This document shows positions 1-64,000 of a DNA stretch of 64,000 nt, one piece after another. Within the stretch, counting starts at the first letter, position 1, and each line of letters starts with the position of its first letter. The stretch lies in NCBI RefSeq assembly GCF_026210795.1, contig NC_089429.1:3410001-3474000 (forward strand). Direction: 5' to 3'. The position numbers and the translations under genes were made by a program. Below the pieces are notes generated by a model that saw only the letters and a program-made list of their open reading frames with translations, ran no database searches and was not told the DNA's origin. Source of the stretch: Rhizophagus irregularis. Lineage: Eukaryota; Glomeromycota; Glomeromycetes; Glomerales; Glomeraceae.

Positions 1-2183
1 CATTTTCGATTCAAAGTCTTCTTACAATCCATTTTGCGATGTCCAGAAACAAGCAGTGCATCGGGTCGATTGTAATGAACCGAATTGAATCGAAATATGG
101 TAGACGCAATAATTCAGACCATCTAACTCCAGTTTGCTTTACAAATCGTTTTTTTGCTGCGTCCGAATTACAGCGTCTCCATCCTATAGCATCTTGACGA
201 TGTTGAGCTGAATCACGGCAAGTAAACCATTCGTCTATTTCATTTATCTCAGCGAAATTATGCTGCCGATTTTCATAATTCGCCTTCTTTTCGCATCTAT
301 GACATGACACCAAAGCGGAAATATGTCCGCAAATTTTTCTTGCAGCCGGTATGTCACATGAAACAAGAATCAGAGCTGCGCGAATTCTTTTCCCTTCTTG
401 ACATTCATACGTTTGATTTAATGTCACTCCTTCCCAAAGTGACTTCAACTCATCAATGATTGGCGCCAGATAGTGATTAATCTTATGTAAACTTACTTCA
501 TCTGGGCCGGGTAATAAGCCAAAAATCAAGATATTATTACGCTTGAATCTGACATCCCTCGGAAAATTACCGATTGCAGCGTATATTACTCCGGTGCTGT
601 GGATTGTGCCGTCGAAGGGTTGAAACCAATCCAAATTCAAAATCAATCCGAGGTGCGAATCAGCAACATCAGATCGGAAAAAATTATTCAAACTTTCATC
701 TGTCGTTTCTTTAAAAGTTTTCCAAACTTCACCATCGTATATATCAGTTAGGATATTATCGAAAGTTGGACGATTTATCCAATGCCTTAGAGAATTTTCA
801 AAGTTAGGTTGACGATACTAAGGTTGCTTGCCAAAACCTAGAGGTTTAGGCAAGATGGCGTTTTGCCGAAAAGCGAAATTCTGCCGAAACTATATTAAAG
901 TTATATTAAAAAACTGGCGAAACTTTGGAGAAAGGCGAAACTGCTGAAACTTATTATAAATGCCGAAACTGCCGAAACTCTGCCAAAACTATAATAAATC
1001 TATAGTAAAATTTTGACGAAACTAATCGTAGGATTTTGAAGAGGTTTAGACAAGCAACCTTAGACGATACATTGCTTCCAATTGCTGCTTAATACTCACA
1101 AACGGAAATAATAATTCAGGTTTGATTGAAATTTGGTTATTTAACAATGTTGTTTTCTGTGCCAAAGGTGTTTGGCACAACCTTAATCTTTGAGTTGTCA
1201 AATTAGGAAATTCGACATGGCAACACTTCATGATGGCAGGTTGCTCATTTTGGAGAAAACTTTTTATTTCCTGTTTGTTGTATAATTTGTGGCATTTGGA
1301 ACACGCCACAAAACTATGAAACTGGTCTTCAAGATTAAGGGCTTTTCTTGCTAGATATAAAGTGTCAGGAAATGTGTCAAAATCAGGACTACCGATTTCT
1401 GTTAGAACAAGCTTCAAGAATTTTATCAATGATTCTGTAGCTGTTTCTGGTAAGTTAAACCTGGTTCAGAAGCTTATGATCCATAATAATATCCATAAGA
1501 ACCGATTATTTATTGATTGTTCAGTATCAGAATCTTGAAATATTTCGAAAGGTGGACATGAATAATCTTCAAAAATTTTGTGGTATTCGTCATCATTGGA
1601 TGGTTCATTATCGGATGATTCATTTCTATCATCAATATTTGCATCTTCCTCCGTAGTATATTCAGAAGATTCAGAAGATTTATCATCTACTATATCTCCT
1701 AATTCAGCAATTATAACCGGTCGAACATATTTTCTTGATCGTTGTCTACTAGGCAATTCAGCTTCCGATTCTCTCATTCGTGGTTCATCTGATATTGAGG
1801 CACTTTCGTATGGTTCGTTACTAGGCAATTCAGCTTCCAATCTTCGTGGTTCTCTGATATTGAGGCACTTTTAGCTTACTAGGCAATTCAGCTTCATCAG
1901 TTAGATGTACTTCTGTTCTTTCTGAATCATCATCTTCTGAATCTTGGTTAATTTCATGGATAGTTTTCGTACGATGATCTACTAATCGTCCATTACATTC
2001 AGAACAATTACATGCAACTAACCTTCCAATACGTGATGATGTAGGATAAGATTGATTTGAAGATTCTTCGTCAATTATATTTGACACTGATCTGGTTCTT
2101 TGTATACGTGATGAAGGTATGGCATGAGGTCTAGAATCTGATTCTTCATTGAGTATACTTGATAATGATCTTTTTCTCGTCAT
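1..2183 (-). pseudogene. Tnp2-type (CACTA/EnSpm) transposase, copy 1, broken and cut by the window edge
   Basis: Cut-and-paste transposase related to the Tnp2 family (Pfam Transposase_21), acting on transposon ends in the nucleus. The start is ATG at 2181-2183. The N-terminal part (2183-1830) is acidic and serine-rich and has a zinc-ligand-like CNCSECNG motif. The middle part (1840-1466) is acidic. The catalytic-family region (1429 to the window edge) shows the Tnp2 signature: LNLDWFQPF, LPGPDEV, a run with VSCDIPAARKICG, CHRCEKKANYEN, and DPMHCLFLDIAKW. Breaks are a frameshift near 1835-1890 within short repeats of EAELPS, a TGA at 1466-1468 where copy 2 has CGA, and a hAT MITE at 819-1062. 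The frame is the same on both sides of the MITE, because MITE plus target duplication is 252 bp. The C-terminus lies outside the window. A second copy is at 40666-44560, and the divergent gene at 2752 starts 568 bp away. Confidence 0.85.
819..1062. mobile_element. hAT-type MITE, 244 bp, TSD GACGATAC
   Basis: The inverted ends are TAAGGTTGCTTGCC on the left and its near complement on the right. The 8-bp direct repeat GACGATAC is at 811-818 and 1063-1070. The interior is rich in GCCGAAACT-like subterminal repeats and has no gene. Ends and interior match the hAT element at 45377-49969, which is therefore the likely family that moved it. It interrupts the transposase gene. Confidence 0.92.
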
Positions 2184-2751
2184 TTTTGTGAACGTTTTTC
2201 AAAATAAAGTTAATTGTTAATAATATATCAATAATATCAATATAATTCGTTTAAAATACTTAAATTAGAATAAAATCATCAACTGCGTCGATGTAATACT
2301 AAATTTATTAAAATCATCAATCTACACTTAAATTATAAATATAAATCATTCGATTAATAATATTAATAATAAAATAGACTATTCGATTAGTATGATGGCG
2401 AAAGTTTCTTAAAGTTTAATTTTTTAAACAACTTCATTTTTTCTTACCAACCTTTTTCTTTTTAGAGTTTAATCTTTTTAGAGTTTAATTGTCGATATAA
2501 TACTTAAATTATATTAAATTTATTAAAATCATCAACTATCACTTAAATTATAAATATTACATGATGTCGATTTGCGTTCAAATCGTTTGATTAATAATAT
2601 TAATAATAAAATAGACTATTCGATCAGTATGATAATGAAAGTTTCTTAAAGTTTAATTTTTTAAATAAAACTTCATTTTTTCTCACCAACCTTTTCTTTT
2701 TAGAGTTTTAACGTCTAATACTCTTCGCAACCAAAAAAAAATAAAAAAATA
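2184..2751. repeat. Divergent intergenic region with two-copy 215-bp tandem repeat
   Basis: This AT-rich region separates the start codons of two divergent genes and probably holds both promoters. A segment beginning near 2300 recurs about 215 bp later, near 2516. Each copy ends in a pyrimidine-rich stretch followed by TTTTTAGAGTTT. No TATA box can be assigned with confidence. Tandem repeats at the corresponding place in the second locus are much more expanded (33960-34275 and 39552-40110). Confidence 0.6.
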
Positions 2752-4773
2752 ATGAGCCAAAATTCGCAACCAAAAAAAATAATGATCCAAAATAGAAAAA
2801 ATAAAAATACTGAAAAAGGTTTGGCTAGTGATAATCGAAATAAAACGATTACTAACATCAATAAAAGTTCGTCCAATATCCAACAAGCTGTTGAAGGGAC
2901 TGCCACGCCAATTCATGAGCAAGCTCAAACACTAACATCAATAAAAGTTCGTCCAATATCCAACAAGCTGTTGAAGGAACTGCCACCCCAATTCATGAGC
3001 GAGCTCAAACTACTAATATCAATAAAAATTCGTCCAATATCCAACAAGCTGTTGAAGGGACTGCCACCCCAATTCATGAGCGAGCTCAAAGTGTAAAAGA
3101 GAAATATAAAAATCTTCGGCTTCCGGATTCGTCCAATACTCAACCACCATCTGCTGCGCCAAGTCATGAACGAGTCTAAAGTGTAAAAGAGAGATATAAA
3201 AATCTTTGGCTTCCGGTCAGATATCAAACTAATGAACCTACCCGCAATGATGATGATACATCAACAGGTCTGTATCGTGTATATATCGTCAGTTAGATTT
3301 AGTATTTTTTTTTTGTTGATTTTACATTTTTATACAGAGAATCGGAGGTTATCTCAAGAAGTATCCGATTTGCGTGCGAAGTGTTTACAGTTAGAACGAC
3401 GAAATAATGAATTAACCAAACATACAGCTGTCGTTGCCACTTAAATAGCTCGCTTACGAGAAGATAATGAATTTTTTGCTGGTGTTAACGCAGAATTCGG
3501 TTCTGAAAATGACGACTTGAAAGAAGAGGTTAACGAATTAAAAATGAAACTCGAACAATACCAGATACGATCATCATCTGAAAGCCTTGATGTTATTGAT
3601 GTTCCAGAAGAACGGTTAGCAAAACGGTTCAAATCGGATGAGTCAAAAAAAGTAAAGAAGACGGTACACTACGCCGAAAATCAACCAAAAGAAAAACAAG
3701 AAGAACAATGTGAAAAGGAGGCGAGGGTTTGTAATTTTGTAATTTTAGGCAGAATTGTACAGTCTTTATACTTTTATACTAATTGTTCCGATTTAAAGAT
3801 TGAAATGAAAATGATTCTCAAAACTATTAAACCTAATGACAATTTGGATGATAACGAAACATTTAATAGTCCAAAAAATGTTGAAATTCATAGTAGATTA
3901 ATTCCCGAACTTCGAAGGGCGATGTTTCCGAATTATAAACCTTCAGTAGCACAATTGACCAACTGGTTGAGCGCCCTCCATAAGTCGCGAAGATCACAAA
4001 CACAACTGAAAAAAAGTGGAAAAAGTGACGAGGACAGTCGTAGAGTTCACAACAACAGTCGCGTACAAAATGTAAAATTGTCGAATTTTTTCCTTTATCA
4101 TCATGTTAATGATTCATGCTAATTTTCTTATATATTTATCATTTAAGAAAAAATTGCGTCGAATTAAGGCTGCAAAGAATCTTTATAGGAAAAGTGACGA
4201 AAGAATAATTAGTTATGAAAAACGCCAATTATTAAAAATGTTGGCAAATCGATCTTACCACTCACCGGAAATCAGTGAGTCAGATGAAGAGAATCCAGAT
4301 AAGACGATCGTATGCGTCTATGATTATTTTTGGTGATCACAAGAGGTTTATACTTCGATATTTATTATACTTCGATATTTATACTTCGATATTTATACTT
4401 CGATATTTATACTTCGATATTTATACTTCAATATATCACTCTCGTTCCTTTCTTTATTTTGTATTTATTTTATTTATATTGTCTTTTTTAGCTAAAAAAT
4501 TTACTTCGAAACGTCATCGACTCACATTCAGCAGATATTCAAATGGCAAAATTACAACGACCTCGCCAGTATGATGATGAAGTTCAACACTTCGACCGAA
4601 TGCACCCTGAAGATGCTCCACAATGGTCATATGTCGAGCAAAAGGATTTTATATATGATATGGAAATCGATAGTAGAAGTGGTTTTGACGAAGATGAAGA
4701 CTATGGTGAAGAAACGGAAGAGGTGTTAATCGATAGTCAAAAAAGTGCAGCCGGTGATGATTTAGCTGAATGA
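2752..4773 (+). pseudogene. Five-exon coiled-coil gene beside Tnp2, copy 1, function unknown
   Basis: Not recognised as a named family. Probable exons are 2752-3267, 3338-3726, 3799-4071, 4148-4345 and 4492-4773, with GT..AG introns of 70-146 bp. Exon 1 holds 27-residue tandem repeats (core SSNIQQAVEGTATPIHE). Exon 2 is a charged coiled coil (ENRRLSQEVSDLRAK and following). Exons 3-5 carry a conserved block with EMKMILK, NETFNS, ELRRAMFP, LTNWLSALHKSRRS, KKLRRIKAAKNLY, YHSPEISESDEE and LLRNVIDSHS. The minus-strand gene at 31690-33903 has the same blocks and intron positions. Damage: a 1-bp loss in the repeats near 2931, a stop within the last repeat near 3178, TAA at 3442-3444 and TGA at 4334-4336. 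It may be a second transposon protein comparable in role to TnpA of En/Spm; that is inference from position only. Confidence 0.6.
4348..4432 (+). repeat. 14-bp microsatellite in the last intron
   Basis: About six copies of ATTTATACTTCGAT lie inside the intron 4346-4491 of the coiled-coil gene. They lengthen an intron that would otherwise be close to the usual 70-80 bp. Confidence 0.8.
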
Positions 4774-4869
4774 AGTGGGACTATCGATTACATTTATTTA
4801 AAAATTTTTTTTTTCATATATTATTCGTAAATATTTCTGATAATTAATATATAACGTTAATAAATTTAA

Positions 4870-5148
4870 ATCGAATTTTCTATATATAATAATTTTCCGA
4901 ATTTAGTATGATTTAGTTCTGATTTATGTCCGATTTAAGTTTCGAAGTACATTTGATTGACTGTCTGAATTTAGTATGATTTAGTTCTGATTTATGTCCG
5001 ATTTAAGTTCCGAAGTACATCTGATTGGCAGTCAATCAGATAACAATCGGAATATATTTTTTTTGTAAAAATCGGACATATTTCAGCCGTAATTTGACCT
5101 AAAATCGGATATCCGATTTTTAGCCGATTTGCCTTATTTCGACTAGTG
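4870..5148. mobile_element. Right terminus of a CACTA-like element
   Basis: The block ends at 5148 in GACTAGTG. Read inward on the opposite strand it begins CACTAGTCGAAATAAGGC and continues with ATCGG-rich subterminal sequence. The same block begins the element at 60744. A segment containing TTTAGTATGATTTAGTTC is duplicated. It lies 97 bp downstream of the coiled-coil gene, so it is likely the outer end of the element that carries that gene and the Tnp2 copy at 1-2183. Confidence 0.65.
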
Positions 5149-14603: not shown

Positions 14604-15889
14604 TAAAGCTCCGCATGAGCCAGAGCCAGCTGCAAGAGCTGGCTCAAGCTTTTAATCTGTGCCATTGAGCTATTGGCGATTAAATTGGTTTAGATCGCAC
14701 CATGTAAACTGAAATGGCTCGAGCCGGTGATAGGCTCGGCTCAAAAAGCTCAAGCCAGTAATAGGCTCGGCTCAAAAAGCTCAAGCTGACTTGAGTTATC
14801 ATACAAAAAACGTTGCGAAAACGTTTTTTGTATAACATTATATTAAAAAAAACGTTTCGCAACGTTTTTTTTAATTCTTTAGTAAAAAACGTTGCGAAAA
14901 CGTTTTTTTTACTATATTATTTTAGAAAAAAATGTTTCGCAACATTTTTTTAAATTCTTTAGTAAAAAAACGTTGCGAAAACATTTTTTTTATCTAATAT
15001 TAGAAAAAAACGTTTCGCAACATTTTTCTAAATTCTTTAATAAAAAAACGTTGCGAAAATGTTTTTTTCACTATATTATATTAGAAAAAAATGTTTCGCA
15101 ACGTTTTTTTAAGTTCTTTAATAAAAAACGTTGCGAAAATGTTTTTTTCACTATATTATATTGGAAAAAACGTTTCGCAACGTTTTTTTAAGTTCTTTAA
15201 TAAAAAAATGTTGCGAAAACGTTTTTTCAGCTATATTATATTGGAAAAAACGTTTTGCAACGTTTTTTAAATTCTTTAGTAAAACGTTGTGAAAACGTTT
15301 TTCACTATATTATTTTAGAAAAAAACATTTTCGCAACGTTTTTTTAAATTCTTTAGTAAAAAAACGTTGCGAAAACATTTTTTTCACAATATTATATTAG
15401 AAAAAAACGTTTTGCAACGTTTTTTTAAGTTCTTTAATAAAAAAACGTTGTGAAAACATTTTTTTCACAATATTATATTAGAAAAAAACGTTTCGCAACA
15501 TTTTTTTAAGTTCTTTAATAAAAAAACGTTGCAAAAACATTTTTTTCACAATATTATATTAGAAAAAAACGTTTCGCAACATTTTTTTAAGTTCTTTAAT
15601 AAAAAAATGTTGCGAAAACGTTTTTTTCACAATATTATTTTAGAACAAAACGTTTCACAACGTTTTTTTTAATTCTTTAATAAAAAAATGTTGCGAAACG
15701 TTTTTCTGAAGATAAAGCTCGAGCGAAGCTTGAACTCGAGGCCATGAAAACTCGCGGTTCGCTCGGCGTTCACTTTAGCAGGCCTAAAATTTTTATGGCT
15801 CGGCTTATTCTGACTTAGGCCAGAATTTTTTTTTCGAGCTGAGGCTGAGCCCAGGTATCGGCGTCGGCTCGCCCACGTACGGAGCTTTA
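14604..15889. mobile_element. hAT-like non-autonomous element, 1286 bp, with inner minisatellite
   Basis: The inverted ends are TAAAGCTCCG and its complement. The flanks AAGGTATT and GAGGTATT match in 7 of 8 positions, as expected for a slightly aged 8-bp duplication. Both ends are GC-richer and full of GAGCC/GGCTC motifs, unlike the AT-rich neighbourhood. The centre is an array of about eleven units. Confidence 0.8.
14810..15705. repeat. Palindromic minisatellite, unit about 80 bp, about 11 copies
   Basis: Each unit contains AACGTTGCGAAAACG and, inverted, CGTTTCGCAACGTT, separated by a short AT stretch and joined by TTCTTTARTAAAA. Each unit can fold as a hairpin. An ORF across part of the array (14892-15191) is a by-product of the repeat. 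Confidence 0.9.
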
Positions 15890-28479: not shown

Positions 28480-30131
28480 TAAGGATGGGTCCACAAATAA
28501 TTTCCAAAATCCGCAATATTGCAGATTTTGGAGTTGAATTGCGGTTAGTAACCCACAATTCCGCAATTCTGATTGGCTGATAATTAAATTTTTTTTTAAT
28601 GTCTTTAAATGATAATTTAATCAAAAAAAAAATTTTTAATAAATTTATTTATTTATTATTTATTAGAAACAATAAAACCATAATTTCTGAAATGGTGCAA
28701 CTGCGTCAAAAACTAAATCAAACACAGATAACAATGACGAACTTAATACTACTAATCAAAGTTCCGGCCAGAATCTACAAAAAAAAGTAGTGAAAGAACG
28801 TTAATAACGTTCTTACATAAGAAAAAACACAAAAAACCCTCCGCTTTCTCCTCTAGAAACACCTATCGGTCTCCATTTCCAAGTTCTAGGCTGGAATCTA
28901 CAAAAAAAAGAAGAAAAGAATGTTAATAAACGTTCTTACATAAAAAAAACAAAAAACTCGCTTCCCCCTTGAAAATACTCACCGGTCTCCATTTCCAAGT
29001 TCCAGGCTGGAATCTACAAAAAAAGAAGTAAAAGAACGTTAATAAACGTTCTTACATAAAAAAAAAAAAAACCAACTTCCACCCCTTTAAAATACTCGCC
29101 GGTCTCCATTTCCAAGTTTCAGACCGGAATCTACAAAAAAAAGAGGTAAAATAATATTAATAAACGTTCTTACATAAAAAAAAATAAAAAAAACCTACTT
29201 CTCCCCTTTAAAATACTCACCAGTCTCCATTTCCAAGTTCCAGGCCGGAATCTACAAAAAAAAGAAGTAAAGAACATTAATAAACATTCTTACATAAAAA
29301 AAATAAAAAACCCGCTTTCCCCTCCCTTTAAAATACTCACAGGTCTCCATTTCCAAGTTCCAGGCCGGAATCTACAAAAAAAAGAAGTAAAAGAATGTTA
29401 ATAAATGTTCTTACATAAAAAAATCCAAAAAAACCCTTGCTTCCCCTCTGGAAACACCTACTGGTCTCCATTTCCAAGTTCCAGGCTGGAATCTACAAAA
29501 AAAAAGAAGAAAAAAACGTTAATAAACATTCTTACATAAAAAAAACAAAAAAACCCACTTTCACCCCTTTAAAATACTCACAGGTCTCCATTTCCAAGTT
29601 CCAGGCCGGAATTTACAAAAAAAAGAATGAATTTTTTTAAAATGAAAAAAAAAATATTTAAAATTGCGCAATGCAATTAGTTGATTTGTACTATGCTGTC
29701 CGATAATCTAATCCAGATCATTAATAACCGTTGAATTAACCGGTTGATATGTTTCTTCTAAAAAATAAACTAATTTTTTTAAAAAATTTTATTAATAAAA
29801 AACCGAATTTTTTTTACTTTTAGTAATAACAAGAAATCGGTTTCTTTATTAGTTAATTATTAAAAAAATTACATTTATTAAAAATAATTATTCTTTTTTT
29901 TGCGAGCAATCTGCAATTCTGCAAATGTTCCGCAATTCCATAAAGTACCGCAATTCAACCGCAATTGAATTGCGGTACTTTGGATTATTTGCGGAATTGC
30001 GGAATATTTGCAGAATTGCAGACAATTGCGAATTGCAGATTTGCGGATATTTAGACTTCAAAATCTGCAATGTTCCGCAATACTGCAAATCGCAATTATT
30101 CTGCAATTGCCTATTTGCGGCACCATCCTTA
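28480..30131. mobile_element. hAT-like non-autonomous element, 1652 bp, TSD GTTTAGGG
   Basis: The inverted ends are TAAGGATGGGTCCACAAATA (left) and a diverged complement on the right (TAAGGATGGTGCC read inward). The 8-bp direct repeat GTTTAGGG is at 28472-28479 and 30132-30139, and the LINE sequence resumes directly after it. Both ends are rich in GCAATTGCGGAAT-type palindromes. The cargo is an array of exon-like units. No transposase. Confidence 0.9.
28790..29630 (-). repeat. Exon/intron-like array, GGAACTTGGAAATGG family, about 8 units
   Basis: On the minus strand each unit of about 120 bp has a pyrimidine tract ending TTTTTTTGTAG, about 31 bases (ATTCCAGCCTGGAACTTGG and ATGGAGACCG), then GTGAGTATTTT. 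The intron-like part holds GAACGTTTATTAACGTTC, an inverted repeat that spans a possible branch point. The 31-base unit is not a multiple of three. Confidence 0.75.
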
Positions 30132-33959: not shown

Positions 33960-34275
33960 TCGTCCTATTTATAAATTTAAAAAATCAAATCAATTAATAA
34001 TAAGAAAATCGTTAGCGTTCTACTGTGTTGACTTCTTAATTGGAAAATCAACTATAAATCATAATTAAAAAATCAAATCAATTAATTAAAATTAAGAAAA
34101 TCGTTAACATCCTACTGCGTTGATTTCTCAATTGACAAATCAACTATAAATCATAATTAAAAAAGACAAATCAATTAATAATAAGAAAATCGTTAGCGTT
34201 CTACTGCGTTGACTTCTCGATTGGAAAATCAACTATAAATCATAATTAAAAAATCAAATCAATTAATTAAAATTA
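33960..34275. repeat. 90-bp satellite, left part (about 3.5 units)
   Basis: The unit contains AAAATCGTTAGCGTTCTACTG, with neighbouring CAACTATAAATCATAATT. The array continues at 39552 after an inserted element. It lies between the two divergent genes. Confidence 0.88.
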
Positions 34276-34299
34276 TACAGGTCGAAATATAAAAAATCA

Positions 34300-35180
34300 G
34301 TCACCAATCGGTTATATGATTGATTGGTGGCTGATTTGAAGCTGATTGGTTATATATTGGTGACCGATTCTTTTAATCTGTCACCAATCGGTCACCAATC
34401 AGGCATAAATTGCCAATCAGTCATCAATCAGTCATATGACTAATTGGTAACTGATTGGTTGCCGATTTGTTTACAATATTTGATTTACATATTAAAGTTA
34501 AAAAATTAGCATTATAGTCATGTAAAGCAAGTCAAATTATACTTAATCTGAGCTTTTGAGTTTGTTTTGATAAATATATTAAGTTTATTATTGACAATCA
34601 GTTACCAATTGGTCACCAATCTGACATAGCCGATTGGTGACTGATTGGTGACTGATTGGTTTACAATATCTGATTTACATATTAAAGTCAAAAAATTAGC
34701 ATTATAGCCTTGTAAAGAAAATCAAATTATACTTAATCTGAGCTTTTGAGTTTGTTCTGATAAATATATTAAGTTTATTATTAACAATCAGTCACCAATT
34801 GGTCACCAATCTGACATAGCCGATTGGTAACTGATTAGTGACTGATTGGTTTACAATATCTGATTTACGTATTAAAGTCAAAAAATTAGCATTATAGCCT
34901 TGTAAAGCAAGTCAAGTTATACTTTATTTGAGCTTTTGAGTTTGTTCTGATAAATATATTAAGTTTATTATTGACAATCAGTCACCAATCGGTCACCAAT
35001 CTGATATAAGCGATTGGTGATCGATTGGTTACTGATTGATTTGTAATATCTGATAGTTTTTAAGAATTCAGGATTTTTATTTATTACTTTAATATGTAAA
35101 ATTGGATCAATGAAAGAAAATCGGCTACCAAATTAATAGCCGATTAGTGACCGATTGGCTTTTAAAAAAACATTCATTTA
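34300..35180. repeat. Left subterminal repeats, unit about 182 bp
   Basis: Just over three long units (with GTTTACAATATCTGATTTAC and TTAGCATTATAG), each ending in clusters of CCAATCGGTCACC and its complement. Such clusters are typical of CACTA subterminal regions. Confidence 0.82.
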
Positions 35181-35219
35181 ATAAAGATAAATGGCATTCT
35201 GATTTACAAATTTTTTATT

Positions 35220-35880
35220 TTTGGGTCATAGTTTTCGTCCAAAAACCTGAAAAAAAGATGAAAGAAACGTTTAATAACATTTCTTAAAGAATTAATAAAA
35301 AACCCCACTCTCTGACCCTCTTTTTACCTAAATTCTAAAGTCCAGTTCATAGTTTTCGTCTGGCAACTTAAAAAAGAAAAAAAAGAAGCATTTAGTAACG
35401 TTTTTTAAAGAATATAATAAAAAAAATCCACTTCCTGACCTCCTTTTTTACCTAAATTCCAAAGTCCAGTTTGTATTATTCGTCCGGCAACCTAAAAAAA
35501 AAAGAAAGAGAAGCATTAGAACGTTTCTCTTAAAAAAAAATATTATCCCTTTCCTCCTTCACTTTACATAATTCCAAAGTCTGGTTCGTAGTTTTCATCT
35601 GGCAACCTAAAAAAGAAGCATTTAGTAACGTAATAAAATAAAAAAAACCTACTTCCCAACTCTCCTTTTACCTAAATTCCAAAGTCTGGTTCGTATTATT
35701 TGTCCGGCAACCTAAAAAAAAAGAAAGAGAAGCGTTAGAACGTTTCTCTTAAAAAAATAAAATATTATTCTTCTTCTCCTTCACTTACATAATTCCAAAG
35801 TCCAGGTCATATTATTCGTCTGGCAACCTAAAAAAAAAGAAAGAGAAGCGTTAGAACGTTTCTCTTAAAAAAAATATGTT
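35220..35880 (-). repeat. Exon/intron-like array, GTTGCCGGACGAA family, minus orientation
   Basis: Six units. Read on the minus strand, each has TTTTTTTAG, then about 40 bases (GTTGCCGGACGAATAATAC to TTTGGAATTTAG), then GTAAAA or similar. Part of the intron-like DNA holds AGAAACGTTCTAACG. The same family runs in the opposite direction at 36100-36720. Confidence 0.7.
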
Positions 35881-36099
35881 ATTCCAGTTCATAGCCGGTA
35901 AGTTGATAAGTCAAATCGGGTAGCAATCGGTTAACAATATAATATTGACCGATTGATGATCAATTTCTTTTCCTGCAATTTGTATCACTCGTGAATTAGG
36001 TGAGATGTGATCCGTAATCTAGATCAGGATAATCCAATTTGGAAAAAAAAAAATTTCTTTTTTATGGACGAAAAAAATTGCTGGACTTTGAGAATTGAA

Positions 36100-36720
36100 G
36101 TAAGAGAGGCGTTTTTCGTTGTTTTTTTTTAATAAATTAAACTAATTTATTTTTCTCTTTTGTAGGGTTACTGGACGAAAACTGGACTCTTGGAATTGAG
36201 GTAAGGGAGGGCTGAGGGAGAAGGTTTTTCATTTTTTTTTAATATATTTTTTTCTTTTTTGTAGTGTTGCCGGACGAAAAATATTGCCAGACTTTTGGAA
36301 TTAAAGTAAGGGAGGGCTGAGAGAAAGCTTTTTTGTTGTTTTTTTTTAATAAATTAAACTAATTTGTTTTTTTCTTTTTTATAGAGTTGCCAGACGAAAA
36401 TATTGCCGGACTTTTGGAATTGAAGTAAGGGAGGACTGAGGAAAAGCTTTTTCGTTGTTTTTTAATAAATTAAACTAATTTATTTTTTTCTGTTTGATAG
36501 AGTTGCCGGACGAAAAACATTGCCGGACTTTGGAATTAAGGTAAGGGAAGGTCAGGGAAAAGAGTTTCGTGATTTTTTTTTTTAAATAATTTAATTTATG
36601 TTTTTTCTTTTTTTAAGGTTAGCCAGACGAAAAATATGATCGGATTTTTGGAATTGAGGTAAAGGAGGACTGAGCAGAATCTACTTTTTTGTAAGGTTGC
36701 TGGACGAAAATATACTAACG
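36100..36720 (+). repeat. Exon/intron-like array, GTTGCCGGACGAA family, plus orientation
   Basis: Five to six units with TTTTTGTAG or ATAG, about 40 bases (AGTTGCCGGACGAAAA to TTTGGAATTAAG), then GTAAGGGAGG. Most intron-like parts contain AAACTAATTT upstream of the pyrimidine tract, a candidate branch point. Confidence 0.72.
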
Positions 36721-37039
36721 TTTCATTCCTTTAGACTAATTTGAATCTCGATAAAAAATAGAGTTGTTTCTTTTCTAAGCGAGTCCAAGGCATTGGGAAG
36801 TTTGACTGGAACCTGGAATTTTTTAGACGTTTCTGGATCATTGATTTCGGTGGGACAGAGCAATTTTTTTTAAAAAAAAAAATTTTTTTTATAACAAAAC
36901 GCTCACTAACGTTTCAATTTTTTTTTTTGTAGATGGTGATATTGGAATTCAGTGAATTTATTATTCAAAATATATTGTGAAGGCAATTGGATGATGATTA
37001 TCTAACGAAGATTATGTTATGGAGTCTTTAAACAAGAAA

Positions 37040-37660
37040 ATTTAAAGGTTCTTAAGATCTCCTTAGACGTAAGTATCGTTATGTTTATTTTTTTTTTAAA
37101 AAAAAAACAATCTTTTTTAATGAATCGTTTATTAAAATGTTTCGTTTATTTCATTTTTATAGACAACCGATTCTTTGTTATCTTTGGACATTGATTTCGG
37201 TAAGGGTAAATATTCTTGGATTATTTATTTAATTAAATAATTACTAATGTTTGTTTGTTTAAAAATCTTTTAGACAGCTTTTCTACTCTTTGGACGTGGA
37301 AATTTGGTGAGTATGATGTTTCTTTTAATTTTTTATTCTATCTTTTAAAGGACATTAACTAATTTCTTTTTTTTTAGATGGTTTGTTTCTCAGCTCTTTG
37401 GATGTAAAATTTGGTGAGAACATCCCTTTAACAAGACGTTTTGTATTCCAGGTCTTTAGATGAGTGAAAACTTTCGTAGGGATTAGGCCATCGAATATAA
37501 ATCTACTCCACTCTTCCAACACTTTCGCCGTCTTTTCCATTCCTTTTCCATCCCTTTTCACACTTTCGTCTCCCCTTTCCCATTCTTTTTTCCTTTCCAT
37601 CTCTTTTATCTTTTTTAGACGACTTTTCAGCCCTTTGGATATGGCATTCTGGTAAGTTTT
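37040..37660 (+). repeat. Exon/intron-like array, TTTGGAYRTG family
   Basis: Four units with TTTTTAG or TATAG, 33-37 bases such as ACAGCTTTTCTACTCTTTGG plus ACGTGGAAATTTG, then GTGAGT or GTAAGT. The same family occurs in the insertion at 12302-13528. Two units are 33 and one is 36 bases. Confidence 0.65.
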
Positions 37661-39110
37661 GTAATGGTTCTATAAGGTAAAATCAAATATTAGTCCAAGA
37701 TGGTTTTCAGTATATAATAAGGTAAAATTGTTTATATTTCTGAACCTGTATAATATTTAGTCATTAGCAAATTAGATTTTTTCAATAACGGGTTTAATAA
37801 CATGTTTTAAAATATTTTTTTTTATACAGTTTTTATAAACCAGTTCAAAACTCTTTAAACTCCATATGGGAAGGGTTATATGGGATATCTGATGGAAAAT
37901 TTTTTTTAAGAGATTTTCTAAAAGTTCATATGGAAAGGATTCGTATGGGATATCTGATAGAAAATTTTTTTTTTGAGAGATTTTTTAAGATTCGTATAGG
38001 ATATTTTTGATAAATAAAGATTTTTTTTTTTAAGATTTCTAAGTGTTCGTATGGGAAGAGTTCATATGGAATATTTTGATAAAGATTTTCTAAGAGTTCG
38101 TATGGAAAGAGTTCGTATGGGATATTTTAATAGAGATTTTTTTTGTGAAATTTTTTAGGGTTTGTATAGATGTTTTTGATAGAAAATTTTTTTTTGAAAT
38201 TTTCTAAGATTCGTATAGGAAATAGGAATTTTTTTTGAAATTTTCTAAGAATTTGTATGAGATATTTTTAATAGAGAATTTTTTTAGAATTCAAACATTA
38301 AATAAAAAATAATATACTTTTTATTAAATTTATATTAAATAAATTAATATTATTAAGCAATTTTAAAAAAATTTAGGTCTCCGAAAGTCAAGGTAAAATT
38401 TAATACAAATTTAAAAGGTCATTATATATAAGGTAAAATAATGAGATGAGTGAATTTGAAATTTTCAGTTTCTGGAGATGCGATATTTATCTATTATATC
38501 TATTATTAACCAATTAAAATTCGGTCTGATCTTTATGCACGTGATCTGATCTTAACATGCATATAAATTACCAAACTCAAGTTTGTTTATTTTTCAAAAA
38601 ATATACACGCTCTTTCTTTTTTATTTTTTTTTTACTCTCTTTACATTTTACAGGTATATTAATTATTGTATTTTTGTCATTAAATTTATTGTACTGACTA
38701 TATTTTATTTTATAATATTAACTTTATCACTTTTTAATATTACTAATGTAACGTTATATTTCTTTTATTTTATATTACTAATGTTATTCTTTTTTTTATA
38801 TTTTACTAACATCATCACATATTTTTCTTTTTTTTTATCAAACTCTTCATAATACTAACTTTGTATTTGTACTTTACTATGATTACTAACTTTTATATTT
38901 ACACTTTACTATTTATTAAATATTACTAACTTTATCAGTTATATTCTAACATCTGTTTTCAAATATTACATCATTTTGTAGTATAAAGTATTTAAAAAAG
39001 ATTATGAATGGTTTTTATTTAAATAAAGACACTATGTATTTTATTGTTTGTAGAGTTTATAATTTTAATAAATATTATAATGTGCTGTAATAAATTTTAT
39101 TATTGGTTAT
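37661..39110. other. AT-rich interior of the 5.27 kb element
   Basis: No gene seen. From 37860 to 38280 there are about eight imperfect repeats containing GTTCGTATGGGATATTTTG followed by GATAGA and an A/T run. The rest is simple AT sequence, and small ORFs here are not credible. Confidence 0.6.
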
Positions 39111-39119
39111 GTGATTACT

Positions 39120-39540
39120 ACTATAAATTAACCCATAAATTGACCATAAATTGACCATCGATTAACCATAAATTGACCATCGATTAACCATAAATTGACC
39201 ATCGATTGACCATAAGTTAACTATCGATTGACCATAAGTTGACTATCGATTGACCATAAATTGACCATCGATTGACCATAAATTGACCGCCAATCGGTCA
39301 CCAATCAGTCACCAATCGGTCACATCGGTCACCAATCTATCACCAATCTGTCACCAACCGGTCACCAATCTGATACCAATCTGACACCAATCGGTCACCA
39401 ATCTGATACCAATCGGTATATCAATCCGTCATCAATTGGACTGCCCGGTTGGTATTGGATTTTGGCAGAAATTGGATGCCAATCAGGCACAAATTGGATA
39501 CCCGATTGATGACTGATTGATGACTGATTTGATACTTTTT
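39120..39540. repeat. Right subterminal repeats
   Basis: Short units ACCATAAATTGACCATCGAT pass into CCAATCGGTCACCAATC units near the right terminus, matching the kind of repeat at the left end. Confidence 0.85.
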
Positions 39541-39551
39541 GACCTGTGTTA

Positions 39552-40110
39552 AGAAAATCGTTAGCGTCCTACTGCGTTGATTTCTCAATTAACAAATCAA
39601 CTATAAATCATAATTAAAAAAGACAAATCAATTAATAATAAGAAAATTGTTAGCGTTCTACTGTGTTGATTTCTTGATTGGAAAATCAACTATAAATTAT
39701 AATTAAAAAATCAAATCAATTAATTAAAATTAAGAAAATCATTAGCGTACTACTGTGTTGACTTTTCGATTAGAAAATCAACTATAAATCATAATTAAAA
39801 AATCAAATCAATTAATAATAAGAAAATCATTAGCGTTCTACTGTGTTGATTTCTCGATTGAAAAATCAACTATAAATCATAATTAAAAAATCAAATCAAT
39901 TAATAATAAGAAAATCATTAGCGTTCTACTGTGTTGATTTTTCGATTGAAAAATCAACTATAAATCATAATTAAAAAAGACTAATCAATTAATAATAAGA
40001 AAATTGTTAGCGTTCTATTGCGTTAATTTCTCAATTGAAAAATCAACTATAAATCATAATTAAAAAAGTCAAATCAATTTATAATAATAAGAAAATTGTT
40101 AGCGTTCTAC
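39552..40110. repeat. 90-bp satellite, right part (about 6 units)
   Basis: The same unit as at 33960-34275, with AAAATCGTTAGCGTTCTACTG. The first unit directly continues the one broken at 34275. Confidence 0.9.
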
Positions 40111-40665
40111 TGCATTAAAATTTGATATACTTTAATGCGGCAAGTTATACTTTGTCGAAATTTGCAGTAAAATCGAAAATATTTCTTGTATATTTAGATT
40201 CTGTAGCGATATTGTTATTATAGCAATACCACTTTGATTAATACAAAATTGTTACTTTTCAACTTTCGCTAAAATTTACAGTTTCTTTTGATAAGGTTTG
40301 TTTGGCATCCGAAAATGATAAAGGGATGATAAAGTGATTATCTTGTAAATAAAAGTTATTTTAAAATAAAATAAGCTTTTTATTTTAAAAATAAGCTTTT
40401 TATTGTAAAATAAGCTTAAATCATATTGCAATTTTTAAAAGTATATTAATTAGAAAATTCGCAAATTTATTATATAAAATTGCCAAATTTGTGAAAAAAA
40501 ATATTAAATCCTAAAAAATTATTGAAATAATCATAGAAGCCAGGATTACATTAATTATATATACAAATTATACAAATTTTGTGTTATTCCAAATTTTATA
40601 AAAATCGGCCTTTTTACAAATTTGGATTTTGCCAAACTTATTAAACTTATTCAAACACTAAACAA
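40111..40665. other. AT-rich upstream region of Tnp2 copy 2
   Basis: About 550 bp with no gene or recognised terminus. It may include the old promoter of the transposase. Confidence 0.4.
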
Positions 40666-41068: not shown

Positions 41069-43151
41069 GAAATAAGAATACCAAGTTCATCAACTTGAAA
41101 TAGGTGAAACATCAACACCCACTTCAGCTGAACAAATGATTGATGAATCTATTAGACAAGAATCGGAAGAATCAGATAACAGTAATCAAGATGATGTTGA
41201 TGATGAATATCAAGATATCGAATTTAACTTCTTATCTCGATAACGTGCAAGAAAGTATACAAATCATCCGGAAATTTCAGAAGATCCAGAAGATTCATCA
41301 TCATCCAAATATACTACAGAGGAAGATATCTACAGTGATACATTGTCTATAGGCAGTGAATCAGATAATGATCCAATTTTGGAATTTCTGGAATTTTTGA
41401 AGACTATTCACCACCTAGTTATGAACCATTTCAAAACCCACTATATTCAGAATCGAATTATAATCGATTTTTATGGATGTTACTTTGGATAATGAACTTT
41501 CGAATAAGATTCAATATCGCAGAGACAGCTACTGAGACTCTAATAAAATTTATGAAATTGGCCCTGTACGAGTTCAGTAGTGACGATTTTAATGATTTTC
41601 CAGATTCGCTTTACTTAACAAGAAAGAAGCTTGGATTAAACGACCAATTTCATAGTTTTGTACCTTATCCGAAATGTTACAAATTGTATAAAAAAGAGGA
41701 AGTGGTAGATTTCAAACAAGAGGACAATCCTGCTATAATAAAATGTCAACACATAGAATTTCCCAATTCTTCAGTTCATAGATCACGTCTTTGCAATATG
41801 GCATTGTCTGAAAAAATTAGCGTATCGACAAATCGAACAATAATATGACCTAATTTAATGTATCTGTTTGCTGGAATCAATCAACAATTTGCCACTATAT
41901 TTTGTCGGCCTGGGTTTAAAAATTCTTTCTGACATTGGACTAATCGGTCGAATTTTGATAATATTTTGACCGATATATATGATGGGTAAGTGTGGAAGAA
42001 TTTTAAAGAATAGGACAATGAAGATTCGCCAAATTTTTTCAGAAGCGAAGTGGCCGATTCTCATCTTGGCTTGATGCTGAATCTTGATTGGTTTCAGCCA
42101 TATGATAGTACTATTTATAATATCGGTATCATATACGCTGCTATATGCAATTTGCCATGCGATATCCGATTTAAACGTGAAAATTTATTGACTCTTGGCA
42201 TTTTACCTGGGCCAAAGAAGGTCAGCTTACATAAAGTAAACCACTATTTAGCACCAATAGTTAACGAATTGGAAACACTCTGGGCTGGGTTAACACTAAA
42301 TCGTACTTATGAATGCGAAAATGGAAAGAGAGTTCGTGGTGCTTTAATCTTAGTATCATGTGACATTCCTGTCACAAGAAAAATTTGCGGTCATGTTTCT
42401 GCCTTAGTTTCATGTTACAGGTGTGAGAAAAAAGCAAATTATGAAAATGTGCAGCATAATGTTGCTGGAATGGATAATGTAGGGTATTCTGCTCAAGATT
42501 CGAATGAGCACTGGCAAAACGCATTAGGTTGGCGAAGATGCAACTCAGACGCTGCTAGAAAGTGCTTCGTCAAAGAAACTGGCGTTAGATGGTCTGAATT
42601 GTTGCGTCTATCATATTTCGACCCTATTAGATTTATTACAGTCAATTCAATGCATTGCTTATTTCTGGGCATTGCTAAGTGGATAGTAAAACAAATTTGG
42701 ATCGATGGGGGTATTTTGACACCAAATTCTTTAAACAAAATTCAGAAAAAGATGGACGAATTTCAGATACCATCCGATTTAGGTCGAATTCCAGGAAAAA
42801 TTCATAGTGGAAAGGGATTCACCAATTTTACGGCCGATCAGTGGCGAATATTCTTTACAATTTATTCAACTGTATCACTTTGGGAACACCTTTCAGACGT
42901 AGATAGAAGAATTCTGACTCATTTTGTCAGAGTTTGTTCGATTTTGGTAAATCAGATTCTAGAATCTAATTTGGTGAATGAAGCCCATAGAAGTCTTATT
43001 GAAATAGTCAAATTAATTGAAAATTACCACGGCAGAGATAAGATCACACCAAATCTTTATCTTTCTCTGCATTTGCGTGATTGCTCATCTGATTATGGAC
43101 TATTATATGCGTTCTGGTATTTCTTTTTCGAACATATGAACGGTATATTAG

Positions 43152-43742
43152 GTAAATATCCGTTAACGATTTTTTAACGATTTTAACGATTTCAATATTC
43201 ATCAGGAAATTTGTTTAGGCGTAATTTAGTGTAATATTTCAGAGGTGGTGTAAAATTTCAAAATATTACACTAAAAACGTAATATTACAAAAGTTTACGC
43301 TCTTAAATTTGAATAATTATAGTAATTTAAAAATATCTCACTATCTACTGATCCAATCAAGACAATCTATAGCTCATTGGAATCAGCTCATCAAGACGAA
43401 TCGAATGGTAGTAAAATCATATCTCTACGTTTGATAAATGACCTTCTATTAATTTAAAACTTTATTACATACTACAGAGCGTTCTATTAACTGTAGAAAT
43501 GCGAATTTACTACCATTCGATTCGCCTTGATGAGCTGATTCCAATGAGCTATAGATCGTCTTGATTGGATCAGTAGATAGTGAGATATTCTTAAATTACT
43601 ATAATTATTCAAATTTAAGAGCAAAACTTTTGTAATATTACAATATTTCAAAATTTTACACCATTTCCGAAATATTACACTAAATTACGCCTAAACAAAT
43701 TTCCTGATGTTAGCTTATAATTTATTGATTTCGCACTTTTAG
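43152..43742 (+). other. Intron of Tnp2 copy 2 carrying a MITE
   Basis: It begins GTAAATATCC and ends CGCACTTTTAG. Joining the exons gives NGILG then SLPNSN in frame, the expected Tnp2 motif. Without the 510-bp MITE it would be 81 bp, the normal size here. Confidence 0.85.
43200..43709. mobile_element. Foldback MITE (CATCAGG family), copy 2
   Basis: Inverted ends CATCAGGAAATTTGTTTAGG and complement. It is nearly the same sequence as 6231-6752. It lies wholly within an intron, 48 bp after the 5' splice site and 33 bp before the 3' splice site. Confidence 0.9.
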
Positions 43743-60484: not shown

Positions 60485-60743
60485 CATTCAATAGTAGATA
60501 GTAATGTTTTATATTGCACTTAATTTGGTTTTTAGTAATCATAAATCTCAGATATTTAGTTTAAATCCAATTGGTGTAATCCAATATGCCATTTTGTTAA
60601 GGATGGAAGAATCCTATAAAAATTATAGTGAATTTAACTAATAAATTTTAGTTATACTATAATAGTATTACAAGTATAATAGAAAACTGTTTTCTATTTT
60701 AGCAGTACAGTAGGTCTTAGTATTGCTTTAAAATAGGATACTA
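60485..60743. other. Spacer, nothing recognised
   Basis: AT-rich sequence between the PIF-like MITE and the CACTA-like element at 60744. No gene or repeat identified. Confidence 0.4.
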
Positions 60744-63620
60744 CACTAGTTGAAATAAGGCAAATCGGCTAAAAATCGGACATCCGATTTTAGGTCGAAT
60801 TATGGCTGAAATATGTCCGATTTTTACAAAAAAATATATTCCGATTGTTATCCAATTGACTACCAATCAGATGTACTTCAGAACTTAAATCGGACATAAA
60901 TCAGAACTAAATCATACTAAATTCGGACAGTCAATCAGATGTACTTCAGAACTTAAATCGAACAAAAATCAGACTATTTTTTTCTGAATTTATTTCAATT
61001 TTTATTATCAAATTTATTAAATGTATTTATTAATTAGATGCTTAAAAACTTTATAATTATATTATTATTATTAGCATCTATCTAAATTACAAATAAATAT
61101 TGGCAATTCAAAATTATAATAAAATAATAATAATAAAATAAACTATGATTCGTACTTACGAATCTTGGTTTTGGTTCATCCATTCGTCGGAAATCCACCC
61201 AAACTTATAAAAAAAAGAAAAGAACGATTATTAGTAACCGTTCATTAATATTAATAAAAAAATTTAACCAAGATTCGTATATACCTACGAATCTTGATCT
61301 TTTTCCGTTCTCCAGAACTTGGAAGCCCACCCGAACCTATAAAATAAAAGAAAGGAACAGTTAGTACCCGTTCCAAAATAATAAAAAATAAAAATAAAAA
61401 ATAAACCAAGATTCGTATTTACTTATGAATCTTGGTTCCTTTTCTTCCGATCTTTGGAAGTCAACCCAAAACCTAAAAAATAAAAGAAAGGAACGGTTAG
61501 TAAACCATTCCAAATAAAAAAAACAAAACCAAAACCAAGATTCGTATATACTTACGAATCTTGGTTCTTTTCCGTACTTCGGAATTCGGAAATCCACCCG
61601 ATCCTAAAAAAAAGAAAAGAACGGTTATTAGTAACCGTTTATTAATAATATTAAAAAAAAAAGAAAAAAAAATCAAGATTCGTAATTAGTAGTTACTTAC
61701 GAATCTTGATTTTCCGTTCTTCAGAATTCGAAAATCCACTCGATTCTAAAAAAAAAGAAAAAAACGGTTATTAGTAACCGTTCATTAATAATATTAAAAA
61801 AAAAAGAAAAAAAAATCAAGATTCGTAATTAGTAGTTACTTACGAATCTTGATTTTCCGTACTTCAGAATTCGGAAATCCACCCGATTCTAAAAAAGAAA
61901 AGAACGGTTATTAGTAATCGTTCATTAATAATATTAAAAAAAAAAGAAAAAAAAATCAAGATTCGTAATTAGTAGTTACTTACGAATCTTGATTTTCCGT
62001 TCTTCGGAATTTGGAAATCCACCCGATCCTAAAAAAAAGAAAAGAATGGTTATTAGTAACTATTCATTAATAATATTAAAAAAAAAAGAAAAAAAAATCA
62101 AGATTCGTAATTAGTAGTTACTTACGAATCTTGATTTTCTGTACTTCGGAATTTGGAAATCCACCCGATCCTAAAAAAAAAGAAAAGAACGGTTATTAGT
62201 AACCGTTCATTAATAATATTAAAAAAAAAGAAAAAAAATCAAGATTCGTAATTAGTAGTTACTTACGAATCTTGATTTTCCGTACTTCAGAATTCGAAAA
62301 TCCACCCGATCCTAAAAAAAAGAAAAGAACGGTTATTAGTAACCGTTCATAATAATAATAATAAAAATAAAAATTAAACCAAGATTCGTACTTACTTACG
62401 AATCTTAGTTCCACTTTTTCCAAAGATCGGAAGCCCACCTGAACCTAAAAAAAGAAAAGAACGGTTATTAGTAACTGTTCATTAATAAAATTAAACAAAA
62501 CAAAAAAATTAAAACCAAGATTTGTATATACTTACGAATCTTGGTTCTTTTCCGTTCTTTGGAACTCGTGAACCTAAAAAAAGAAAGAACGGTTATTAGT
62601 AACTGTTCATTAATAAAATTAAAAAAAAAAACAAAATTAAAACTATGATTCGTATATACTTACGAATTTTTGGTTTTTTTTCGTTCTTCGGAACTCGGAA
62701 ACCCCTCCTGAGACGCCGAACCTATAAAAAATAAAAGAAAAAGAACGGTTAGTAATAACCGTTCCAAATATTAAAAAAAGAAAAAAAAAACTAAGATTCA
62801 TAGTACGGAATCTTAGTTTTTTTCCGTTCTTCGGAAACTCACCCAAATGGCCGAACCTATAAGAAAAAGAAAAGAACGGTTAGTAACCGTTCATATAATA
62901 GGAAAAAAAATAAAATAAAAAATAAACCAAGTTTCGTACTTGTACTTACGAAACTTGGTTCTTTCCGTTCTTCGGAACTCGGAAGCCAACCCGATCCTAA
63001 AATAATAAAGAAAAAAACGGTTATTAGTAACCGTTCGTTAATATTACAAAAAAAAAACAAAAAAAAATTAAACCAAGATTCGTTTACTTACAAATCTTGA
63101 TTCTTTTCCATTCTTCGGAACCAGGAAGCCTGCCCGAAACCTATAAAAAAGAAGGAACAGTTAGTAACCGTTCCGAAATATTAAAAAAAGTAAAAACCAA
63201 GATTCTTAAGAATCTTGGTTCTAAATCCCCTTTCTCTTCCCCCTTTCCCCATTTTTTACCTTAAAGTCCAGTTTCGTGTTAAAGCCGGCGTCCTCCTATA
63301 CGTCCTACAAAAAAAATAATGAAAAGAAACGTTAGTTCGTTTCTTAAATTAACAAAACTTCACTTTCCTGTTTTTTACCCTTTTTTAAACTTTGATATGC
63401 GTAACGTGTGACGTTTAATTAGACTATTCGACCAATGTCTAATCGTAGATCATGGTCGAATTTTTAATTGAATATAGGCCAGCCTTTTTCGACTAGTGAA
63501 ATCAGAAATCGGCTATGCCGAATGTCACCTGATATACAGACGATCGTCAATTATTAGCCAAAATTTAGCCAAAATAAGGACGATTTGCCTTATTTCCGAT
63601 TTGCCTTATTTTGACTAGTG
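60744..63620. mobile_element. CACTA-like non-autonomous element, 2877 bp, TSD CTA
   Basis: Left end CACTAGTTGAAATAAGGC; right end read inward CACTAGTCAAAATAAGGC. CTA flanks both sides (60741-60743 and 63621-63623). The left subterminal part matches 4870-5148 in inverted orientation, so it belongs to the same family as the element carrying Tnp2 copy 1 and the coiled-coil gene. The cargo is a long exon/intron-like array. No transposase. Confidence 0.9.
61140..63230 (-). repeat. Exon/intron-like array, GGGTGGATTTCC family, about 16 units
   Basis: Read on the minus strand, each unit of about 135 bp has a tract of T and C ending TATAG or TTTTAG, an exon-like piece (GGGTGGATTTCC to CAAGATTC), then GTAAGT. 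Most pieces I counted are 45 or 48 bases; a few are 38, 44, 46 or 58. The intron-like part of about 80-90 bases carries GGTTACTAATAACC, a fungal-like branch point. The GTAAGT lies in the loop of an inverted repeat (CCAAGATTCG and CGAATCTTGG), and the branch point lies within a second (GAACGGTTA and TAACCGTTC). Confidence 0.85.
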
Positions 63621-64000
63621 CTAGTTAAGCATTTCCTACCTTCTGAATTTAAGTTTCCATCTAATAGTGCATATATAAGATACTTTTTAGTATAATGAGT
63701 GGTTTGCAGATTAATTATATTAGAATTAATCATTATGTATTTTTTTTGTATATAAACTTTTTAAAAAAAATAATTAATGAACTTTTAGCTAAAATTCTCC
63801 TTTTTTACTAAAACTCAAAAATTGTGCTTTGCAAATTTTTTAGCATCAATTTAATAAGAGCTATAAAAAAATAATCAGACTATCAAATCATATTGAGATA
63901 ATTGCATAGCCTTAATTTTTTAACTTTTTTATTAATTTATTAATCCCAAATAATACTGATATAACTTACATAAGGAGTTGCGTAAAGTTTATATGAAAAA
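63621..64000. other. AT-rich end of window, nothing recognised
   Basis: No ORF, terminus or repeat family identified beyond the CTA duplication. Confidence 0.5.

Follow-up and report, generated by a model that had tools for sequence, protein, structure and literature searches.

The tandem array of exon- and intron-like units that we analysed in Rhizophagus irregularis is cargo filling a CACTA transposon, and no free satellite. We consider it probable, with good confidence, that R. irregularis has many non-autonomous CACTA transposons, this element among them, whose cargo consists of gene-like tandem tiny exons and hairpin-bracketed GT-AG introns. The copy described here lies in the window, that is, the whole stretch of 64,000 nucleotides analysed, and its relatives were searched for in 146.7 Mb of the R. 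irregularis genome, comprising 32 contigs.

Transposon ends and related elements

A preliminary description had set the extent of the feature at 61140..63230; the array does lie there, but the whole feature is larger and comprises a non-autonomous CACTA-type element of 2877 bp (60744..63620, cargo on the minus strand) with the inverted ends CACTAGTCAAAATAAGGCAAATCGG and CACTAGTTGAAATAAGGCAAATCGG. At 60744 and at 63620 the ends read CACTAGT(C/T)(A/G)AAATAAGGCAAATCGG, and comparison of the end sequences sets the terminal inverted repeats at 63596..63620 (minus strand, 5' side of the cargo) and 60744..60768 (plus strand, 3' side). The element is flanked by a 3-bp target site duplication, TAG on the minus strand, located before the cargo at 63621..63623 and after it at 60741..60743. 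A second, internal CACTAGTCGAAA end at 63487..63498 (minus strand) resembles the end of a related family, L047-L049.

The element end has 83 matches in the genome at one mismatch or fewer, and the reversed control has none. When adjacent ends of opposite direction were paired by hand, 14 pairs fell in the range 1.8-3.9 kb, 14 in the range 6.6-7.2 kb and five in the range 12-37 kb, with 17 ends left over. Each of the 14 short pairs was read, and each contains the array; the target duplication is exact in 10 of them and an exact one is absent in L011, L015, L017 and L020. The one element read among the 14 long pairs, L029, carries a Transposase_21/tnp2 reading frame (E 2.2e-14). It matches the window element at 94% over 235 bp at one end and at 80% over 117 bp at the other, the former being the 3' terminal and subterminal region of the window copy (60744..60976, aligned with L029 7005-6771). 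The matching ends together with the tnp2 frame thus mark the short elements as non-autonomous CACTA transposons that probably have an autonomous partner.

At least about 39 clusters of the units occur in the genome among the matches listed, and 20 places besides the window were read. Among these 21 array-bearing places (the window and L009-L028), a single CACTAGT end is present in L018 and in L021, and no such end was found in L014, L022 and L024. A second end family, CATCAGCAAG, carries the same kind of cargo in L019, L026 and L027, as a repeat of about 3.7 kb with the ends CATCAGCAAGTTT, at which a clear target duplication was not seen. In a third end family, L047-L049, the units are related to those of the window array, the ends read CACTAGT(C/T)GAAAAAGGAA(C/T)ATTCGGCC and the target duplications are exact in all three cases (GGC, TAT and AAA). 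In a sister copy of the window element, L020, the outer positions 1-118 are 81.5% identical to the full-length element and the inner positions 140-374 are 67% identical to L049, with the internal CACTAGTCGAAA at the junction (window position 63487). From these matches and the position of the internal end we infer that an older array element gained new ends from the tnp2 family.

Organisation of the array

About sixteen exon/intron-like units on the minus strand had been described, and a greedy splice model gave 16 introns of 78-121 nt. In each unit a donor, mostly GTAAGT, a TACTAA-type branch site, a pyrimidine tract and an AG could be read directly, as had been claimed, two of the sites being damaged. 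The first remaining exon, GACG...TTTAAG, is 45 nt long (63260..63304, minus strand) and is followed by a GTAAAA donor. From there, sequence reading and the greedy splice model define a tandem array of 15 exons with the introns between them (61160..63140, minus strand). The first bases of exons 1-8 are 63140, 62996, 62856, 62721, 62573, 62444, 62311 and 62170, and those of exons 9-15 are 62028, 61888, 61745, 61603, 61472, 61336 and 61204. The 14-nt exon at 62843-62856 has a GTGAGT donor (62837..62842). A damaged donor, ATAAGT, follows the exon starting at 61472 (61421..61426), and the acceptor before 61204 is also damaged, reading ATAAG. The last acceptor AG lies at 61082..61083, with the final exon starting at 61081, and its sequence is identical in the other 13 elements. 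Past the start of this exon there are two AATAAA hexamers (61013..61031, minus strand).

Thirteen GTAAGT motifs stand on the minus strand in the 1.9 kb between 61154 and 63091. In the whole window, counting both strands, there are 44, compared with 26.3 expected from shuffles, the largest of which reached 39. The exons measure 14-59 nt and their frames rotate. The view that they come mostly in multiples of three holds for the window copy, with 10 of 16 counted by hand (9 of 16 with the shifted acceptor before 61204), five of them being near-identical neighbours; in the sister copy L016, however, only 6 of 15 exons qualify, about the chance level, so that exon length in threes is no property of the family. 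A birth by intron duplication, also suggested at the outset, proved broadly right in that exon+intron units were duplicated in tandem.

Read in the orientation of the array, the parts follow a gene-like order, namely the end and subterminal region, a C/T-rich tract, a first exon, two further exons, the array, the last acceptor and AATAAA, whose RNA form AAUAAA is reported as the main poly(A) signal of R. irregularis, at 56.7% of sites (PMC10234402). The first exon ends in TAAT before a GTAAGT donor (read in L017 and L010), and the two exons after it end in TTTAAG before GTAAAA. The C/T-rich tract precedes the array in 13 of the 14 short elements, the window copy being the exception. This copy runs from TTTAAAAAAGG directly into the second intron, which means that it has lost both the C/T tract and the first exon, and, damaged as it is, it is probably silent or nearly silent.

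Hairpins and intron signals

The two hairpins per unit reported in the preliminary description were confirmed: one, formed by AACCAAGATTC and GAATCTTGGTT around the GTAAGT, covers the donor, and the other, GAACGGTTACTAATAACCGTTC, covers the branch site. Folding of the donor region reached z <= -2 in 15 of 16 introns of the window copy, 15 of 18 in L020 and 15 of 17 in L016, and that of the branch region in 13 of 16, 12 of 18 and 15 of 17, respectively. In a comparison set of ordinary chaperonin-gene introns, picked by script and tested at the 5' side on intron sequence only, the same threshold was reached by 0 of 15 donor and 1 of 15 branch regions; the set derives from 22 exon gaps, 16 of them with a solution, and one of the 16 starts with GTAAGT. 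At one mismatch or fewer the genome contains 572 matches to the 22-bp branch hairpin, and the backwards pattern does not occur. A search for perfect stems, which misses mutated ones, placed branch hairpins at 8 of 16 acceptors in the window array, 2 of 6 in array C, 0 of 7 in array B and 0 of 8 in array D.

In the 189 of 475 profile hits that are full-length units on the correct strand, the donor-like motif is kept in 155 and the branch-like motif in 188. Stem pairs changed on both sides number 62 in the donor hairpin, compared with 19.8 in shuffles (at most 32), and 14 in the branch hairpin, compared with 6.7 (at most 13), counts that are inflated by shared descent and for which palindrome correction is another possible cause.

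The donor, branch site, pyrimidine tract and AG stand in the order of a spliceosomal intron, and AG is avoided between them. Within introns we observed 9 AG where 25.8 were expected in the window copy, 12 against 30.7 in L020, 3 against 20.6 in L049 and 3 against 10.8 in L026, that is, a depletion in all four elements tested, whose units are related and hence not independent. The order and spacing of the four signals recur in several unrelated array sequences. On these sequence features the units are likely to be intron-competent.

Coding potential and divergence

Joined together, the exons of the window copy form an open frame of 200 aa, which beats 96% of exon shuffles (P = 0.04). The same test gave P = 0.065 for L012a, 0.10 for L028, 0.21 for L023, 0.22 for L020 and 0.88 for L016, and against shuffled exon order L028 gave P = 0.01. 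The test took in six of the 14 short elements, because in several decayed copies the greedy splice model came to an early stop (after three introns in L010, L015 and L025). In little-decayed copies the exons are nearly without stops in all frames, and those of L049, of the third family, are nearly stop-free in all three.

The 200-aa frame matches 95 predicted proteins (best E value 3.4e-33), of which 94 are labelled R. irregularis and one is labelled R. diaphanus, and in the 10 of them that were scanned Pfam gave no match above the cut-off. A single-copy parent gene of the cargo did not turn up in what the analysis covered. Published gene models of R. irregularis do splice such exons into "hypothetical proteins". 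Two of the 95, P0009 and P0084, are models of the source assembly and align with array elements of L012 and L025; most of their joins fall at or within a few bases of the splice sites of the units, and several fall inside exons, which makes these models partly artefacts of the predictor. Among the matches, five of nine RIR_jg gene names carry the transcript number.t2 or higher, while the project as a whole gives 43,675 isoforms for 41,572 models, made with RNA-Seq intron hints (PMC6123716). This hints at alternative splicing, although the names may belong to a later annotation and the mapping of reads is poor in repeats.

Divergence was measured on orthologous stretches of 10 of the 14 elements, the other four differing in unit number. 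Its mean pairwise value is 4.9%, or 2.4% without CpG sites. Outside CpG, changes were found at 39 of 1374 exon positions, 22 of 1296 in the arms of the donor hairpin, 6 of 260 in donors, 4 of 668 in the arms of the branch hairpin, 0 of 360 in branch sites and 23 of 3215 in the rest of the introns. At CpG the corresponding values are 59 of 317 for exons, 29 of 160 for donor-hairpin arms, 4 of 40 for donors, 36 of 259 for branch-hairpin arms and 10 of 100 for the rest of the introns, the branch sites containing no CpG. In these 10 stretches the exons diverge faster than the introns, a difference against which works the counting of about 35 bases of the last, unlabelled exon as intron. Furthermore, CpG transitions that create stops are not depleted (25 of 80, compared with 33 of 237 at other CpG). 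Taken together, the divergence and the undepleted stops give no sign of a protected peptide and indicate decay mainly by CpG transition, a pattern that agrees with the reported methylation of transposons at CpG in R. irregularis (PMC8647823).

An excess conservation of the splice signals had been anticipated. GTAAGT is not conserved above its neighbours; TACTAA is unchanged, yet its hairpin arms are nearly so, and the check is a weak one, as this outcome is also expected of transposon copies under no selection. Neither the exon shuffles nor the divergence nor the stop-creating CpG transitions indicate a reading frame kept by selection. Of the proposal that the array is spliced into variable repeat peptides there remain, as likely, the spliceable units, on the grounds of AG depletion, gene-like order and gene models, while a conserved peptide is unsupported.

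Discussion

We propose that the array arose from one exon+intron unit through unequal tandem duplications and that, most likely, it was spliceable from birth and multiplied inside the transposon as a passenger. In this mechanism full-length relatives with tnp2 would move the array element in trans, and intact copies would probably still be transcribed and spliced into variable RNAs without a conserved reading frame, any peptides then differing from copy to copy. The window copy would be a silent or nearly silent passenger.

The evidence was also weighed against other explanations. A genuine family of protein-coding repeat genes, for instance of variable secreted or nuclear proteins, might have been picked up by CACTA ends, the arrays being its exons and some copies still making protein. 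The matching predicted proteins, the several isoforms of some gene models, the stop-free exons of L049 and the low P values of the window copy and of L028 speak for such a family; against it stand the higher P values of the other elements, the very short exons with rotating frames, the undepleted stop-creating transitions, the faster divergence of exons and the lack of a Pfam match in the 10 proteins scanned, and we regard it as unlikely. A palindromic satellite, amplified at the DNA level, with perfect hairpins from template switching and splice-like signals that are incidental, is rather improbable. Although the genome does contain palindromic arrays without clear splice signals (such as window 14805-15705), although the splice signals are not clearly better conserved than the hairpin arms, and although the paired stem changes could stem from palindrome correction and shared ancestry, such a satellite is at odds with the depletion of AG, with the recurrence of signal order and spacing in unrelated arrays, with a correctly placed C/T tract, first exon and AATAAA, and with gene models that splice the units.

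The cargo could instead be kept because it is spliced, the element being removed from or joined to host transcripts as a splice trap, or its RNA being shielded from small-RNA silencing by intron camouflage. Its recurrence in three end families, the hairpins over donors and branch sites, unlike the ordinary introns tested, and the stop-free exons of little-decayed copies are all in favour of this explanation, which we nevertheless find quite unlikely, as the copies give no sign of selection on the signals. More speculative in content, and likewise unlikely, is a mini-exon cassette that is itself the selected cargo: hairpins would present the donor and branch sites, exons would be kept nearly stop-free in all frames, the cassette would change transposon family by acquiring new ends (tnp2 ends outside an older CACTAGTCGAAAAAGG end), and splicing would hide the element from silencing or join it to host transcripts, making lineage-specific repeat genes. 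A spread of single units as new host-gene introns, in the manner of introners, is very improbable; every unit has the full set of intron signals and is highly multiplied, but the copies read are tandem arrays in transposon ends or their remains, and the intron itself has no terminal inverted repeats.

The passenger array that we favour has partial counterparts. Non-autonomous DNA transposons that bear tandem repeats, and the satellites born from transposons, hold an array of variable copy number within inverted terminal repeats. The R. irregularis array resembles them in both respects and differs in that its unit is a complete exon and intron set in a frame of C/T tract, first exon and AATAAA. 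The closest published case that we have seen is soybean Tgm-Express1, a CACTA element for which cDNA shows splicing of the cargo in many combinations (PMC1947982). Both have CACTA ends, a 3-bp target duplication and a cargo of exons and introns, whereas Tgm-Express1 holds five unrelated captured gene fragments and the R. irregularis array one repeated exon+intron unit with predicted splicing, with hairpins over both splice regions and in a multi-copy fungal family. Genes with tandem exon duplication (PMC9013439) likewise have repeated exon+intron units in one transcription unit, but here the array is transposon-borne and gives no sign of a conserved protein. Introners, to which PMC6142364 makes reference, are also multiplying sequences with intron signals; the R. 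irregularis units, in the copies read, are arrays carried as transposon cargo. SP7-like effectors of arbuscular mycorrhizal fungi, R. irregularis among them, share imperfect hydrophilic repeats with the array and are described as having a signal peptide and, ahead of the first repeat, a conserved intron (PMC11333574); such an effector was our first guess, and it was dropped because in the array every repeat is separated from the next by its own intron. In open PubMed Central papers we found no description of a tandem, hairpin-bracketed exon/intron design.

These arrays are already a warning that gene predictors make spliced "hypothetical proteins" from them. If intact copies are spliced, part of the reported orphan gene content of R. 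irregularis would be transposon cargo, and the arrays would offer a natural test bed for the handling of a dozen near-identical exons by the spliceosome and for the question whether intron-containing transposon RNA is shielded from silencing. The exchange of ends suggests a route by which cargo may pass between transposon families.

Additional arrays and elements

Several array-bearing places have features of their own. Two array elements in L012 (2714-8259) point in opposite directions with about 108 bp between them, and each is flanked by a separate 3-bp target duplication. The 3' subterminal region of L013 contains a palindromic insertion of about 80 bp with CACAGGTC-type ends. An intron-like stretch of about 1 kb in L026 (~2900-3940) has repeated CGGAACGTTGGCTAACGTTC hairpins, which resemble the branch-site hairpins without acceptors. 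Between the early exons and the array of L049 there are purine-rich GAAAGGGGAAGCTAAAAAC repeats (~1640-2170), possibly a long intron or an exon.

The window holds a second CACTA-like element at 34276-39548, with the ends TACAGGTCGAAA and CACAGGTCAAAA and TTA on both sides, flanked by stretches of one 88-89-bp tandem repeat (33977-34267 and 39550-40112). Inside it are two other exon/intron-like arrays in divergent orientation, at ~35226-35880 on the minus strand and 36040-36990 on the plus strand. Another array, at 28759-29627 (minus strand), consists of 121-bp units with GTGAGT donors, a GAACGTTTATTAACGTTC palindrome in the branch region and TTTGTAG acceptors; it sits between GCAATTCCGC-type repeats, and carrier ends were not found for it. 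The array at 14805-15705 has 81-bp units of ACGTTGCGAAAACGT palindromes in which no splice-type signals were seen. Positions 1-5148 are the right-hand part of a 6953-bp relative (C1:3408196-3415148) that has the ends of the array element and a second gene with 80-bp coding-like repeats. A separate Transposase_21 (tnp2) reading frame lies at 42050-43177 on the plus strand (E 3.8e-9).
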